From the NCBI GenBank assembly GCA_020430865.1, contig JAGQIY010000114.1, positions 1-10,487 of the forward strand: DNA of 10,487 nt, written 5' to 3'. Numbering within the stretch: the first letter of the stretch is position 1; each line of letters begins with the position of its first letter. A program made the translations under genes and the position numbers. Below, piece after piece: positions 1,524 to 10,487 of the stretch. Below the pieces are notes generated by a model that was given only the letters and a program-made list of their open reading frames with translations, did no database searches and was not told the origin of the DNA. The DNA comes from Myxococcales bacterium. GTDB lineage: Bacteria > Myxococcota > Polyangia > Polyangiales > Polyangiaceae.

Positions 1524-3467
<1,944 letters not shown>

Positions 3468-3742
3468 CGTCGAGCCGGCGGAGCTCAGCCCTCCAGGGTC
3501 GGGCAGCTGATGTCAACGCGGAGCAGGGGTGAAGATGGAGTGAGCGGGGCATGGGATGTATGTCGCCGAAGCGGCGCGCCACGATTGCTCGCGGCACGAT
3601 CTCGCCCCCGAACCCGAGCCCCCCGAATATCACAAGTGCTTGAAATAACGAGTGTTCTCACCTGGGCACGAGGCGGGCTTTGGGCGACGCAAGGCGGGGG
3701 ATCGATGATCACCAGGACTTCCGGGCGGCCCTCCGCGGTGGC
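3468..3742. other. Intergenic region with an AT-rich island
   Basis: This is the longest gap in the window (275 bases). I see no convincing small gene. A short plus-strand frame (3510-3746) has no ribosome site, and its Arg/Ser/Ala-rich composition looks like out-of-frame GC-rich DNA. There is no strong terminator after the FHA regulator, only a weak AGCCC/GGGC dyad near 3486-3505. The notable part is an AT-rich patch at about 3625-3660 containing CTTGAAA and a loose direct repeat (AGTGCTT at 3635, AGTGTTCT at 3651). It is the likely promoter area for the peroxiredoxin gene. Confidence 0.6.
3639..3664 (+). promoter_or_regulatory. Possible promoter of the peroxiredoxin gene (heat-shock-like -35)
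   Basis: CTTGAAA at 3639-3645 equals the consensus -35 element of sigma-32-type promoters, and TTGAAA also fits a housekeeping -35. A CACCTG at 3659-3664, 13 bases later, is only a poor match to the CCCCAT -10 element. It sits in the sole AT-rich patch of this gap, about 80 bases before the chosen start of a peroxide-defence gene. The -35 match is seen directly; the sigma factor assignment is a guess. Confidence 0.25.
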
Positions 3743-4378
3743 ATGACCCCATGCATGAGTGATCACCCCGTCTTGGCCAGCCTCGTCGCCCTGCTTCTGC
3801 TCTCGGCGTGCAACGAAACCCAGACGACGGCGGCGCCGACGCGGACCGCCACCAGTCCCACCGGCTCTGCCGGCAGCCCAGACACGCAGCCGGCTCAGAG
3901 CGGCGCGACCAAGAACAGCGTCGAGGGCGAGCTGTTGGCGGTCGGAGCCGACGCCCCGGCCATCGACGCAACCGCCCACGACGGCGAGAAAGTTTCCCTG
4001 GAGAAACTCAAGGGCAAACCGGTGATCGTCTACTTCTACCCGAAGGACGACACTCCGGGATGCACGATCGAAGCTCAGCAGATCCGCGACAGCTACGAGG
4101 ATCTGAGCAAGACCGGAGCGGTCGTGCTCGGCGTGTCCAGCGATGGAAACGACTCCCACTCAGAGTTCGCGAAGAAATACTCGCTGCCCTTCAAGCTGCT
4201 ACCAGACGAGGACCACCGCATCGCCAACGCCTTCGGTGTGAGTCTGCGCGGTGGAATGGCTGCGCGCGTGACCTTCTTGATCGACAAACAAGGAAAGATC
4301 GCCAAGGTCTTCCCCCAGGTGAACCCCGACGGTCACGCCAAAGAGCTGCTCGAGGCGCTGAAGGCCCTGCCAGAGTAG
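3743..4378 (+). CDS. Lipoprotein peroxiredoxin, BCP/PrxQ type, one-cysteine form
   Basis: This is a thiol peroxidase of the AhpC/TSA superfamily, BCP (PrxQ) branch, which reduces peroxides through a peroxidatic cysteine. From the ATG at 3743 it has 211 residues. Residues 9-23 are a hydrophobic segment ending in the lipobox LSAC, so C23 should be lipidated and the enzyme membrane-anchored outside the cytoplasm. Residues 24-70 are a Thr/Ser/Pro/Ala-rich linker. The catalytic domain (about 67-211) has the DDTPGC motif with T104 and peroxidatic C107, and the conserved Arg (R175) in ARVTFLID. The resolving cysteine usually found five residues after the peroxidatic one is a Gln (Q112), and the domain has no other Cys, so it should work by a one-Cys mechanism. 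The start is uncertain: ATG 3755 is equally possible, TTG 3680 is less likely, and none has a good ribosome site. Unusually, the short signal lacks Lys/Arg before the hydrophobic core. The next gene follows after 45 bases, probably in the same transcript. Confidence 0.93.
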   Translation: MTPCMSDHPVLASLVALLLLSACNETQTTAAPTRTATSPTGSAGSPDTQPAQSGATKNSVEGELLAVGADAPAIDATAHDGEKVSLEKLKGKPVIVYFYPKDDTPGCTIEAQQIRDSYEDLSKTGAVVLGVSSDGNDSHSEFAKKYSLPFKLLPDEDHRIANAFGVSLRGGMAARVTFLIDKQGKIAKVFPQVNPDGHAKELLEALKALPE

Positions 4379-5108: not shown

Positions 5109-8100
5109 CTATTGGATCCCGTACTGCTTCAGGCGTCGGTAGAAGGTGCGTCGGGGCATCCCCAGCAGCTCGGCGGCCTTGACGCGGTTCCAGTTGCTGG
5201 CCTTCAGCGCCTGCAAGATGCGTTCGCGCTCGTCCAGCTTGTGCTGGCTCAGGCTGCTGCGCACGCTGGAGCCCGAAGACGGAGGCGCGGTGGTCGTGCG
5301 GCGCCCCGTGTTGCTGGTGGTCGACGCGGCGCTCCCGGTGAGACTGCTGAACAGGGCGCTACCGGCGCGACCATCCGGGATATCGAAATCGTCTTGATCG
5401 AGCTCCGGCTTCTCGCTCAGCACCCAGGCGTTGAGCAACACGTGCTCCAGCTGGCGCACGTTGCCGGGCCAGTGGTAGCCGCGCAGGCGCTTGAGTCCGT
5501 CTCGCGTCACTGCCTTCTTGTCGCGCTTGTAGCGCGCTGCGAAGATCCCGAGGAAGTGGTCCACGAGCTGGGGGATGTCCTCGGTTCGCTCCCGCAGAGG
5601 AGGGATGCGCAGCTCGACCACGTGGATACGGTAGTAAAGATCCTCACGGAAACTTCCGTCCTCGACCATCGCCGCCAGGTCGCGGTTGGTGGCGCAGATC
5701 ACGCGAACGTCCACGGCCTCCTCGTTGGCTCCCCCAACCGGACGGACCTTGTGCTCCTGGAGCACCCTCAGCAGCCCCGCCTGCATCCGCTGAGGCATCT
5801 CGCCGATCTCGTCGAGCAGGATGCTGCCGCCTTCACCTTCCCGGAACAGCCCCTTGCGGTCGCGATCCGCACCGGTGAACGCACCGCGCACGTGACCAAA
5901 CAGCTCGCTCTCCAGCAGATGCTCGGGGATCGCACCGCAGTTGACGCCGAGGAAGGCCTTCTTCGCGCGGGGCCCGGCGCGATGGATCGCGTTGGCCACG
6001 ATCTCCTTCCCGGTGCCGCTCTCGCCGGTGATCAACACCGCCACGTCCGTATCCTTCACGCGATCGATCAACGAGTAGACCCGGCGCATGGGCTTGCTGG
6101 TGCCCACCAGCCCCATGTAGCCGAAGTGGCTGTACAGCGTCTCTCGAGCGTCGCGCAGGCGACGACGGGCGATCTTCAAGCGCTGAGTGCGCTGGTCCAG
6201 GAGCTCCTGGAGCCGGCTCTGCGCCTCTCGCAGTCGCTCGTTGGTGCGCTCGAGTTCTTCCGCGCGGCGACGGTTCTCGGTCAGCAGGCGCGCCGACTCC
6301 ATGGCGACGGCGGCCTGATCAGCGAAGGCCTGCAGCGTGGGCAGCTCGCGCTCGAAGTGGTCTCCAGGCCGATTCCGCGTCTCGACGTAGAGCGCTCCGA
6401 TTGGCTCTCCCTCGGGAGCGACGATCGGCACGCAGGCGACGGACTGCAGGTCCAGCTGGTGCACGGACGCGTACCCGCTCATGCGAGCGTCGGTCTGGGC
6501 GCTCTTGCTGACCAGGGGTGCCCCGCTGTCGATCACTTGTTGGGCGATGGAGCGCGAGAACTCCGCGTGGGTCTCGTCTCCCGAGCGTGTGCGTGACGTA
6601 TGGACGCTGAGGCTTCCGTCTTGCTCGAGCAGAATCAAGTAGCCCCGCTCTGCCTGGGCGAGCTCGATGGCGTGACCAATCACGAGGCGCATCAGGCGCT
6701 CGAGATCGCGCTCCCGAGCGAGCACCGAGTTCACCTCCAGGATGTGCGCCAGGCGTTGCTCGAGCGGAGTCAGGCTGATGCTGCTGATCAGCGAGCGATC
6801 CGCGCGAGGAAACGTCGGCGATGGGGAGAAGCCCGCCAGATCCGTGGGCGCGGACGTCATGGACTCGCGCTGAACCCGGGCGCGCAACGCGCGCCGCCGT
6901 GCGTCGTTCCAGTAGACCTCGCGGAGATCCCTGGGGAGTCGTGCGCCGATCTCCTCGAGCACCGTCAACGCCTCTTCACGATGGCGACGCGCGAGGGTCG
7001 GCTGACCGCCAGCCTCAGCGACCTCTCCCAGGACCTCCTGGGCCCGCCACAGCCATTCCTTCTGCCCTGCGACGCGCGCCGCCTCCAGCGCCTCTTCGAC
7101 GAACGTGCGCGCCTGCTGCTCCCTCCCGGCGACCCAGGCGACGCGACCACGGGCGAGCATGTAGAGCGGCTTGTGTGCCGGAGCGCTGGCCAAGGCCTCA
7201 CGCGCCTGGTCCAGCTGGCGCTCCAGCTCGATCGTATCGGGGGCTTCCGCACGGCAAGCAGTGAGCACGCCCTCGAGGCGCGCCTCGGCCGAGTCGATGC
7301 CGCGACCGACGGCCTCATATGCCGCAGCGCAGGCCTCGTACAGGCGCACGGCGCGCTCGATATCGCCAACGCGACTGGCGAGCTCGGCCTGAAGTCCCGA
7401 GAACTGCGCGTTGAGCACCGGCGGGAGACTCCCCCGCTGTTCCTCGAGCAGCTCGATGCTCTCTCGGGCGCGCGCGAGACGCCCGAGATAGAGGTCGGTG
7501 TTCGCCAGGTTGAGCAGCGCGTTGCGGGTCGTGGAGCGACGACCCGAGCGACGCCCCATGTCGACGGCGGCCTCGAAGTGCTCGATGGCTCCCGCGATGT
7601 CGCCGCTCACCTTGAGCAACCCCGCCAGGTTCAGCTGCGCCGTGCTCAGCAAGCCTGCATCCCCGGCGCGTTCACCAGCGACGATGCACTGCTCGTAGGC
7701 TTCTCGCGCCTCCTCGATGCGGTCATCACGCTGCAGCACCAGGCCACGGCTCACCAGAGCTACCGCCTCGACGCGCGGCGCGTCGTGTTGCCTCGCGCGC
7801 TCCACGGCGCTCTCCAGATCCTCGAGCGCCTGCTCGGTGTTTCCGAGGTAAGCCGCGCCCAGGCCGTGAAACGCGCTCGCTTCAGCGCCCAGCGGTCCGT
7901 CCTCGTCGACCAGCTGCACGAGCACCTCGAGCGCGCGAGAGTAGTCACCCGTCGCGACGTAGGCCCGTCCTACGTAGAGCATCCAGATCTTCGCCTCCAA
8001 GGTGCCCCGGCGCTCCTTGGCAAGGCCCGAGACCTTCTCCAGACGGGATAGCGCGGAGGTGGAGTCGCCGAGTCCCAGTTCGAGGCGAGCCCGTAGCGTC

Positions 8101-9614
8101 TCCAACCTGAGGCGCTCGGTGCGGGACTCCGGCGTGTTTGGCACCGTAGTGCCCTCCCCCTCCGATTTCACGCGGTCCACTTCATCCATCGCCTGGGCCG
8201 CGTCGTTGAAGCGGCCCCGATCCAGGAAGTAGACGGCGCGCTCGAAGGGGTTCTTCGGTAGCTCCGACTCCGGCGCCGACGACTCCCCCGCCAAGGCTCG
8301 ATCGATGTCGGCCTCGGAGGCGACAGGCTGGGCCGCGAGCGTCTCGACGAGGCCACGCAGCGCGCCGGGCCTGCCCCCCGAAGCGTCGACCACGTGAGCC
8401 AGCAGACGGCCGGTGAGCGAGGGCATCGCGCGCCGTACCAGCTCCTCTGCGTGGTGCTGATCCAGACGTGGCACCTCGAAGCGCTTTGCCCCCTCGCGAA
8501 GCTCGCTGTCGCCGACCAGCACCAGACGCGCACCGTCGGCGTTGAGCGCCTTGACCAGCTCGAGCGCCTGTTCCGCAAGGAGATGCGCATCATCGATCAA
8601 CACCGTGACGCCGCTCTTGCCTTCGAACTCGGCCAGCTCGGCTTCCACCGCGGCGGGATCTTCCACGACGTGATCGTCGATCCAGACCAGCGGGCGTCCT
8701 TCGACCCCCAGGGACCAGGCGAGGCGTCGGAGCAGCACGCTGCGACCGGATCCCAGCGGGCCATCCAGCCATAGCCTTTTTCCGCGCGATAATTTGGATA
8801 CGCGCTGCTGGAGCTGACTCGAGATGGCGTCGATGCCAAGCACCGGCCAGACCTCGTGAGCGTCGTGACGAGCACCCGACTTGAACCCAGCGGCGCGACG
8901 GATCGCCGTCGCCAGCTCGTCAGCGGAGGGGTGTCGCTCCCGAGGGTCGGTGGCGGTGGCCCGCGCCGAGACATCCATCAGCTCGCGGCGCATGCGCGGG
9001 TTGATGGTCTTCGAGGCTGAAGCGATGATGTCGGCGATGGTGACGCCGAGCGCATAGACCTCCGCGCGAACCGTGAGCGGCTTGCCCTCGAGCAGCTCCG
9101 GCGCCGCGTAGCGGGGAGTCAGCCCCTCCGGGCGAGTTCCAGTCTCGCGCCAGGGCGCAGCGAGTCCGAGATCGACCAGGGTCGCGCGGCCGCTCGGCTC
9201 GACGATGATGTTGTGAGGCTTGATGTCGCCATGAAGCATGCCGGCGCGGTGCAGCAGCGTGACCTGGTCCGCGGCGCGAATCAGCGCGCGAGTCGCGGCT
9301 TCGGCGTCTCCGGTCTCGATCAGAGCCTGCAGGCTCTCGCCATCGACCAGCTCACGCAGCATGAACGGTCGACCGCTCTTCGGCAGGCGACCGAAGCGCA
9401 CCACACGCGGCACACCCAGGCCCTCGAGACCGCTGAGCGCCACCGCCTCACGAACCAGCGCGGTCATCTCGCGCTCGCTCGCGGTGGGAGAGAGCATCTT
9501 GAGCGCGAGCTTGTCCCCGGTGTGGCGATCACGAACCGCCCACACCTCGCCACCGCCGCCCTCACCGAGGCGTTGCAGGCTGGCGTAGCGTGCAGGCAGC
9601 TCGAGCTCGCTCAC
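5109..9614 (-). CDS. Ser/Thr kinase - STAND/AAA-like ATPase - TPR - GAF - sigma-54 activator fusion protein
   Basis: Counted from the GTG at 9614 the protein has 1,501 residues. (a) Protein kinase, about 11-245: glycine loop GEGGGGEV (17-24), Lys39, catalytic loop HGDIKPHN (D130, K132, N135), DLG (D148) and an APE-type motif (171-173). All catalytic residues are present; the Arg before the catalytic Asp is Gly. (b) ATPase of the AAA_16/STAND kind, about 258-441: P-loop GPLGSGRS with Arg291 in place of Lys, and Walker B LIDD (D341-D342). (c) TPR array, about 458-916. (d) GAF, about 951-1111. (e) Coiled coil, 1111-1161. (f) Sigma-54 AAA+, about 1166-1405: Walker A GESGTGKE (1197-1204), GAFTGA (1244-1249), Walker B LLDE. 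(g) Ser/Thr-rich linker, 1417-1457. (h) Fis-type helix-turn-helix, 1461-1499. The kinase-ATPase-TPR layout recalls PknK-type regulators, but the output here is sigma-54 activation. GTG 9614 was chosen because it follows the upstream stop by 31 bases with a weak GGGGAAG site. GTG 9671 would add 19 residues and overlap the upstream gene by 26 bases without a ribosome site. Confidence 0.95.
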   Translation of the reverse strand: MSELELPARYASLQRLGEGGGGEVWAVRDRHTGDKLALKMLSPTASEREMTALVREAVALSGLEGLGVPRVVRFGRLPKSGRPFMLRELVDGESLQALIETGDAEAATRALIRAADQVTLLHRAGMLHGDIKPHNIIVEPSGRATLVDLGLAAPWRETGTRPEGLTPRYAAPELLEGKPLTVRAEVYALGVTIADIIASASKTINPRMRRELMDVSARATATDPRERHPSADELATAIRRAAGFKSGARHDAHEVWPVLGIDAISSQLQQRVSKLSRGKRLWLDGPLGSGRSVLLRRLAWSLGVEGRPLVWIDDHVVEDPAAVEAELAEFEGKSGVTVLIDDAHLLAEQALELVKALNADGARLVLVGDSELREGAKRFEVPRLDQHHAEELVRRAMPSLTGRLLAHVVDASGGRPGALRGLVETLAAQPVASEADIDRALAGESSAPESELPKNPFERAVYFLDRGRFNDAAQAMDEVDRVKSEGEGTTVPNTPESRTERLRLETLRARLELGLGDSTSALSRLEKVSGLAKERRGTLEAKIWMLYVGRAYVATGDYSRALEVLVQLVDEDGPLGAEASAFHGLGAAYLGNTEQALEDLESAVERARQHDAPRVEAVALVSRGLVLQRDDRIEEAREAYEQCIVAGERAGDAGLLSTAQLNLAGLLKVSGDIAGAIEHFEAAVDMGRRSGRRSTTRNALLNLANTDLYLGRLARARESIELLEEQRGSLPPVLNAQFSGLQAELASRVGDIERAVRLYEACAAAYEAVGRGIDSAEARLEGVLTACRAEAPDTIELERQLDQAREALASAPAHKPLYMLARGRVAWVAGREQQARTFVEEALEAARVAGQKEWLWRAQEVLGEVAEAGGQPTLARRHREEALTVLEEIGARLPRDLREVYWNDARRRALRARVQRESMTSAPTDLAGFSPSPTFPRADRSLISSISLTPLEQRLAHILEVNSVLARERDLERLMRLVIGHAIELAQAERGYLILLEQDGSLSVHTSRTRSGDETHAEFSRSIAQQVIDSGAPLVSKSAQTDARMSGYASVHQLDLQSVACVPIVAPEGEPIGALYVETRNRPGDHFERELPTLQAFADQAAVAMESARLLTENRRRAEELERTNERLREAQSRLQELLDQRTQRLKIARRRLRDARETLYSHFGYMGLVGTSKPMRRVYSLIDRVKDTDVAVLITGESGTGKEIVANAIHRAGPRAKKAFLGVNCGAIPEHLLESELFGHVRGAFTGADRDRKGLFREGEGGSILLDEIGEMPQRMQAGLLRVLQEHKVRPVGGANEEAVDVRVICATNRDLAAMVEDGSFREDLYYRIHVVELRIPPLRERTEDIPQLVDHFLGIFAARYKRDKKAVTRDGLKRLRGYHWPGNVRQLEHVLLNAWVLSEKPELDQDDFDIPDGRAGSALFSSLTGSAASTTSNTGRRTTTAPPSSGSSVRSSLSQHKLDERERILQALKASNWNRVKAAELLGMPRRTFYRRLKQYGIQ

Positions 9615-9645: not shown

Positions 9646-10487
9646 TCAGAGGCCGTAGTCCGCCCCCACACCCACGAAGAAACCGCTGGTGCCGAAGCCG
9701 AGATCCAGCCGCGCGACGAAGCTCTTGGCGGGCTTGAAGCGCAACCCGGTCTGCAGCGCGAGCCAGGGGAAGACGATGGGCTTGGAGCCCCCGTCCGCCC
9801 AGGACGGCTCGTTGTAGTCGCCGTAGTGGTCGTTGTCGTCTCCGCAGAAATCGCCCGGGTCTTGGTCCTGGTTGGGGCTATCGCAGCGCTCGAAGTCCTC
9901 CGGATTCCCTGCGGAACCTGGACGCGGGTAGGCCTGGACGCGGTTCAGGTCGCCGAACATGAAGCCCAGACCAACGCCCGCGCCGTAGTTGAGGCTGAAC
10001 GCGGGGCTGAACTCCTGGGACCACAGGAAGTCCGAGGTGATGTAGATCGCCTTCATCTTGCTGTTGACGATTTCCCAGGCCTTCTCGCCGTCGCTGGTCG
10101 ACTTGAACGGGGTGTCGTCCATCGCGTAGTTCGCGAACCACAGGCCGAAGTTGTACTCGAAGCCGTCCTTGCGGATACCAAACTCGGGGCCGCCCGAGTG
10201 CACCACCACCGTGCGACCGCCGTCGCCGAACAGGTTGATCATGAACTTCGGCACGATGATGGTGCGGTAGCGTAGGCCGACGAAGTAGTAGGTCTTCCCG
10301 GGCAGCTCGAGGGCGGAGTCTCCGGCGCGCGCGTCGGCGACCGCGCTGTCGTCTCCCTGGGGAACTGCTGCGGGCGGTGGCTCGACCTCGCTGTCGCCAA
10401 CCACGGCCTCGGGCTCCTTCGTCGCGGGCTCCCCTTCTGGTGTGGGATCGACACCGGGAGCCGGCTCCGCGGCGCCGGGCTCTGCCG
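9646..10487 (-). CDS. Probable outer-membrane beta-barrel protein, N-terminus outside the window
   Basis: The minus-strand frame is open from the right edge to the TGA at 9646-9648, giving 279 visible residues. A GTG at 10404 lies within the frame, but 27 in-frame codons continue upstream of it in the same Pro/Glu/Ala-rich style, so the gene begins beyond the window. The first ~60 visible residues are a flexible linker. The rest alternates aromatic and small residues in strand-like blocks (TYYFVGLRYRTIIV, FEYNFGLWFANYA, FSLNYGAGVGLGFMF, WLALQTGLRF, ARLDLGFGTSGFF) and ends with GVGADYGL, as in outer-membrane barrels. Between two strands is a very acidic loop (9808-9885) with two cysteines 13 residues apart and many Asp/Asn, which might bind a divalent cation. 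No family is recognised. The kinase-regulator starts 31 bases downstream on the same strand, so the two are probably co-transcribed. A signal peptide is expected outside the window. Confidence 0.75.
   Translation of the reverse strand, partial: AEPGAAEPAPGVDPTPEGEPATKEPEAVVGDSEVEPPPAAVPQGDDSAVADARAGDSALELPGKTYYFVGLRYRTIIVPKFMINLFGDGGRTVVVHSGGPEFGIRKDGFEYNFGLWFANYAMDDTPFKSTSDGEKAWEIVNSKMKAIYITSDFLWSQEFSPAFSLNYGAGVGLGFMFGDLNRVQAYPRPGSAGNPEDFERCDSPNQDQDPGDFCGDDNDHYGDYNEPSWADGGSKPIVFPWLALQTGLRFKPAKSFVARLDLGFGTSGFFVGVGADYGL

Follow-up and report, generated by a model that had tools for sequence, protein, structure and literature searches.

The stretch of DNA analyzed here (10,487 nt, hereafter the window) carries on its minus strand a single open frame that runs to a stop at 5109 from either of two GTG codons, at 9671 (1520 aa) or at 9614 (1501 aa). 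GTG 9614 is the better start, with a predicted product of 1501 aa, because the gene upstream stops at 9646, leaving a gap of 31 nt before this codon, because the alignment with the closest relative (L001) begins at residue 20 in the numbering of the longer form, and because a database protein of 1501 aa (P0001) is 100% identical over the scored region; P0001 is likely to be the window's own record and would thus give no independent support for the start. Domain positions and residue numbers refer to the 1520-aa form, and all named domain matches exceed the Pfam cut-offs. The features are:

5109..9614, minus strand: kinase-STAND-TPR-GAF-sigma54-HTH protein, 1501 aa (open frame, Pfam, homologues, database proteins)
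8886..9596, minus strand: Hanks-type kinase domain, residues 26-262, with K58, E75, D149, N154, and D167
8292..8831, minus strand: STAND-like nucleotide-binding and helical block, residues 281-460 (nSTAND_NTPase5, structural model)
8739..8762, minus strand: P-loop GPLGSGRS, with Arg310 in place of Lys (orthologue alignment)
6855..8249, minus strand: TPR superhelix, residues 475-939 (TPR_12, TPR_MalT; paired helices in the model)
6297..6713, minus strand: GAF domain, residues 987-1125 (Pfam)
5385..6110, minus strand: sigma-54 AAA+ domain and lid, residues 1188-1429 (Pfam and NifA model match)
5868..5885, minus strand: GAFTGA motif, residues 1263-1268 (alignment)
5121..5231, minus strand: Fis-type HTH, residues 1481-1517 (HTH_8)
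9646..10487, minus strand: upstream gene for an 8-stranded outer-membrane-type barrel, its 5' end beyond the window (model, OmpA-like fold)
1524..3467, plus strand: FHA-GAF-sigma54-HTH activator, a possible partner (Pfam; synteny)
3680..4378, plus strand: AhpC/TSA-family peroxiredoxin-like protein, start uncertain (Pfam; synteny)

The preliminary description of this DNA had proposed one polypeptide reaching from a kinase to a complete sigma-54 AAA+/Fis module with GAFTGA, and this is borne out by the continuous frame, by the Pfam domains and by the preservation of their order in homologues. The domain search it had suggested recovered Pkinase (29-220, E 1.7e-26), TPRs in the mid-protein (TPR_12 and TPR_MalT), GAF (GAF_2, 987-1125, E 8.6e-17), Sigma54_activat (1188-1354, E 3e-68, followed by AAA_lid_14 at 1360-1429), and HTH_8 (1481-1517, E 1.2e-14, 54.2 bits against a cut-off of 22), and the block behind the kinase matched nSTAND_NTPase5 (283-386, E 3e-11, 43.8 bits against a cut-off of 34). 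No HisKA or HATPase match was found among the best 25 of 32 Pfam rows at E 0.01, and residues 1188-1517 are taken up by the sigma-54 module and the HTH. The predicted structure of residues 20-980 has a pLDDT of 87.3; comparison of this N-terminal model with the PDB listed kinases only, and the STAND and TPR parts were barely probed by fold.

Of 79 loci kept from a scan of genome contigs, 22 have a homologue that spans kinase to sigma-54 module in the same order and in one frame, with 47-92% identity in the best segment (one of them, L007, ends at a contig edge before the HTH). The homologues come from genomes labeled Polyangia, Polyangiaceae, Sorangium, Labilithrix, Byssovorax, Myxococcales, and delta-proteobacteria, and three of them (L012, L014, and L019) lie on finished chromosomes of Sorangium cellulosum. 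The window probably derives from a metagenome-assembled genome, and the distant relatives L025 and L047 have their kinase and activator parts in different frames, both of which could speak for two genes joined by a sequencing or assembly error; however, the same one-frame order in 22 homologues from other assemblies indicates that the fusion is real, and we reject such a join, which the preliminary description had named as one of two possible refutations, as wildly improbable. In L025 and L047 (36% identity) the two parts lie in overlapping frames, so that either the assemblies are frameshifted or the protein is truly split there; together with L056 they were left out of the alignments, their matches being spread over several frames. 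L085, L089, and L092, identical to L002, L020, and L010, were dropped from the tree and from all counts of 30 distinct members.

The domain order, for which a survey had also been proposed, is common to many Polyangia-type genomes. Among 140 genomes drawn from the phylum, 18 have a match at E 1e-140 or better, and 11 of these (3 already met in the contig scan), as well as Sorangium So0157-2 itself, encode a near full-length protein; So0157-2 has one copy of it, alongside 93 matches to PF00158, several being weak or partial. The sigma-54 part matches 7797 sequences in the protein collection, and 110 of the best 120 carry both PF00069 and PF00158 as judged by eye. Four close relatives of the sigma-54 half (P0024, P0032, P0034, and P0102), on contigs of at least 19 kb, show no Pkinase and may be forms that lack the kinase or genes called too short; P0032 reads GAFTSA. 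Further kinase-GAF-sigma54 proteins are encoded in the same or related genomes (L094:1722-6965, L097:2251-6810, and L098:303-4436).

The kinase domain contains the catalytic Lys, alpha-C Glu, catalytic Asp, Asn, and Mg-binding Asp of a Hanks-type kinase, and K58, E75, D149 (the D130 of the preliminary description), K151, N154, D167, and E192 are invariant in 33 aligned rows (30 distinct), in agreement with its claim of intact catalytic residues. The catalytic loop reads HGD, and an HGD rather than an HRD loop makes classical activation-loop control doubtful, which we count against the explanation favored below. Mean pairwise identity (28 sequences, L001 and L008 left out) is highest in the AAA+ domain (0.74), followed by the kinase (0.62), the GAF domain (0.60), the TPRs (0.47), and the STAND block (0.42); given a kinase conserved this strongly, the domain is unlikely to be idle. 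In the paralogue L094 the kinase is degenerate (DLS for DFG) and the sigma-54 module intact, suggesting that kinase activity is dispensable in some relatives, which likewise weighs against that explanation.

The Walker A Lys and the Walker B Asp-Glu of the sigma-54 module likewise show no variation across the 33 rows (30 distinct). An exact GAFTGA is present in 25 of 30 distinct members, the window included, with GAYTGA in 2 and altered forms in 3 (GSFTSA in L001, GAFTDA in L013, and VAFSGS in L008); the altered forms also count against the favored explanation. L001:1868-6406 (+), the closest relative at 92% identity, has GSFTSA in its protein P0003 as well, and there either the sigma-54 contact is lost or altered or a low-coverage assembly has a base-call problem. 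A NifA model matches residues 972-1520 at 401.3 bits, below the NCBIfam equivalog cut-off of 528.85. One match to a sigma-54 gene was found in each of 4 related genomes searched. Scored with a -24/-12 consensus, the window has one site of at least 10/12 matches (2.2 expected) and none near the operon, and 526,751 bases from 31 loci contain 6 sites of at least 11/12 against 5.0 expected; this lack of enrichment also counts against the favored explanation. Membership in a defence system was considered and rejected: in the best 25 of 38 PADLOC rows the similarity is confined to the shared sigma-54 module (RtcR) or to the kinase (PD-T4-6 and others).

A further feature lies in the middle block, where the P-loop, GPLGSGRS, has Arg at the position usually held by Lys. 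This holds for 28 of 30 distinct orthologues, window included, so that the Lys looked for in a STAND domain is found replaced, while the Walker B acidic pair is kept (Asp360 in 33/33 rows, Asp361 in 31/33). Of the "ATPase-TPR sensor block" in the preliminary description, the nucleotide-binding kinship and the TPRs stand, but the plain ATPase label is not supported as given. The orthologue tree requires two changes at the P-loop letter, and in a larger set of 120 proteins it is Arg in 100, Lys in 8, and unreadable in 12. For a wider set we searched with the front part of the paralogue L094, from the same genome as L001, and of 92 relatives 40 carry Pkinase with Sigma54_activat, 4 Pkinase with HisKA/HATPase, and 1 a guanylate cyclase domain (all by eye). 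Setting P-loop letter against output in 75 rows, 12 of them hand-picked members of the window family, of which 56 were readable and 19 dropped for an unreadable P-loop or kinase motif, gave 31 Arg and 7 Lys among sigma-54 proteins and 0 Arg and 18 Lys among others. The association has a Fisher p of 3e-7 with kinship ignored, in a row set where the P-loop is unreadable in 16/40 sigma-54 rows and 6/23 others. A second P-loop pattern returned 21 Arg, 6 Lys, and 13 without a match for sigma-54 rows, and 1 Arg (P0212), 5 Lys, and 17 without a match for the others, so the count of no Arg outside sigma-54 proteins depends on the pattern used. The wider tree requires at least 6 P-loop changes and at least 4 output changes, and a test on independent pairs, only 3 of which lie on supported branches, has a median p of 1, the independent changes being too few; we therefore treat the tracking of sigma-54 output by the Arg P-loop as a lead rather than proof.

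Neighborhoods were read at 31 of 32 loci, leaving out L110, which has no kinase part. In 24 of the 31, the barrel gene is the immediate upstream neighbor, on the same strand and no more than 183 nt away. Its product is modeled with 8 strands (pLDDT 84.8), has OmpA, OmpX, and NspA as the nearest solved structures, and is matched by neither Pfam nor NCBIfam at E 0.01; an acidic stretch ahead of the last strands and many invariant residues were also observed. Judged by this model, the barrel is a predicted OmpA-like family, undescribed, that is tied to the kinase-activator. Five of the seven loci without it (L008, L009, L017, L022, and L106, the first four forming one clade) have instead a divergent alpha/beta hydrolase gene 155-193 nt upstream. 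A peroxiredoxin-like gene lies no more than 2 kb downstream, on either strand, in 11 of 27 loci with enough sequence. Of 25 loci that offer at least 4.6 kb, 8 have the FHA-GAF-sigma54 activator downstream on the opposite strand; 6 of 7 aligned neighbors retain the Gly-Arg and Ser-His residues of the FHA domain, which in L105 has lost the serine. These links may be plain synteny. By Pfam, the FHA-GAF-sigma54 activator of the window shows no receiver domain, which makes it too broad to say, as the preliminary description did, that enhancer-binding proteins are usually controlled by a receiver fed by a histidine kinase. A PrkA-type serine kinase gene occurs within 6 kb of the kinase-activator at 14 of 31 loci (L002, L003, L008, L013, L015, L016, L017, L020, L022, L102, L104, L105, L106, and L108). 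In a lake metagenome (L010:6589-12314, plus strand) the kinase-activator follows a GvpL/GvpF gene (Pfam E 7.2e-49) by 86 nt, a weak GvpH match also precedes it, and upstream ORFs farther away look GvpA- and GvpK-like by eye; there it may be a member of a gas-vesicle operon.

Rings of AAA+ domains that carry GAFTGA remodel the sigma-54 polymerase. The reading that we favor, and to which we give roughly an even chance, is of a cytosolic, receiver-less sigma-54 activator on a PknK/HstK-like sensory chassis, gated in cis by its own kinase. The TPR and GAF domains would bind a partner or small signal; signal binding and (auto)phosphorylation by the kinase would free the AAA+ domain to form a ring, which would engage sigma-54 by way of GAFTGA and open those promoters to which the Fis HTH is bound. 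The signal could be envelope or redox state, as suggested by the neighbors alone, the barrel upstream and the peroxiredoxin downstream. According to PMC4381067, STAND proteins alternate between a closed form with ADP and an open form with ATP; here, with an Arg P-loop, the block might rather serve as a nucleotide-binding hinge or scaffold than as an ATP-hydrolyzing assembly switch. The domains and their order, the conserved kinase and AAA+ residues, and their conservation in related genomes can be taken from sequence, but kinase activity is a prediction and gating in cis the least certain step. More tentatively, and in our view somewhat doubtfully, outputs could be interchangeable on a kinase-STAND-TPR-GAF chassis: with a sigma-54 ring the STAND Lys would have become Arg, because assembly of the AAA+ ring replaces the STAND ATP switch, and phosphorylation rather than a receiver would license promoter opening.

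Gating in cis has to be weighed against two other readings of the same architecture. The kinase could act in trans, for example on a protein read by the neighboring FHA activator, with the sigma-54 half a separate output of the same sensor and the same signal. An activator of one family downstream in 8 of 25 loci and the kept FHA residues would fit this, as would the phosphorylation of separate transcription regulators by PknK, a STAND kinase (accessible part of PMC9045387); but the FHA neighbor is absent from the available flanking DNA in the remaining 17 loci, one FHA domain has lost its serine, and shared synteny alone could account for the link, and on balance we think this reading unlikely, if well worth considering. 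Alternatively, the kinase might be a regulatory or nucleotide-sensing module whose catalysis is irrelevant, with the ligands of the TPR and GAF domains alone controlling the sigma-54 half. GAF-only activators such as NifA function without a kinase, and the degenerate kinase of L094 points the same way; an idle domain, however, would hardly keep every checked catalytic residue invariant in 30 distinct orthologues, and we regard this reading as the more improbable of the two.

The gene itself is not undiscovered, since database records already name it "sigma 54-interacting transcriptional regulator," "protein kinase," or "PknK." The combination of domains and its logic, on the other hand, seem unstudied in the literature searched: we found no description of a kinase and sigma-54 fusion in open-access papers, most subscription papers lying outside that search, so that an earlier mention is possible, and the accessible parts of PMC2877116, PMC1262709, PMC2176072, and PMC11032199 do not mention one. 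With a Hanks kinase and a complete sigma-54 activator in one chain, a direct route from eukaryote-like phosphorylation to sigma-54 transcription can be put to the test in culturable Sorangium by changing single residues, and the fusion is a direct place to ask whether a Hanks kinase switches on sigma-54 promoters within one molecule. The Arg P-loop further raises the question of whether a STAND block is functional without its lysine when another AAA+ ring assembles.

Both halves of the protein are of known kinds, and we interpret it as a chassis of the PknK/HstK type that carries a sigma-54 output. PknK of Mycobacterium tuberculosis shares the N-terminal kinase followed by a STAND/MalT-like region, but the accessible parts of PMC1262709 and PMC4381067 describe no sigma-54 AAA+ module in it. 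The window protein has that module behind its kinase-STAND-TPR part, in line with the PknK-like front half and different output of the preliminary description, and differs further in the Arg of its STAND P-loop. The HstK-type proteins of cyanobacteria (Ser/Thr and histidine kinase in one chain), judged here from P0183 and not from HstK itself, combine kinase, AAA_16, TPR, and GAF, but their output is HisKA/HATPase and not sigma-54 AAA+, and P0183 retains the P-loop Lys. NifA and other GAF-containing sigma-54 activators share GAF, AAA+, and Fis HTH, whereas the window protein has kinase, STAND, and TPR parts in addition and scores under the NifA cut-off. In AfsK/AfsR of Streptomyces a Ser/Thr kinase also controls an NB-ARC/TPR transcription regulator, but these are two separate proteins, and AfsR is described with trans_reg and BTAD rather than a sigma-54 AAA+ domain (PMC2877116 and PMC1262709). 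The other kinase-GAF-sigma54 proteins of the Myxococcota (L094, L097, L098, P0138, and P0139) have the same general order, but differ in the low identity of their front halves, in the degenerate kinase of L094, and in L097 and L098 showing no P-loop.
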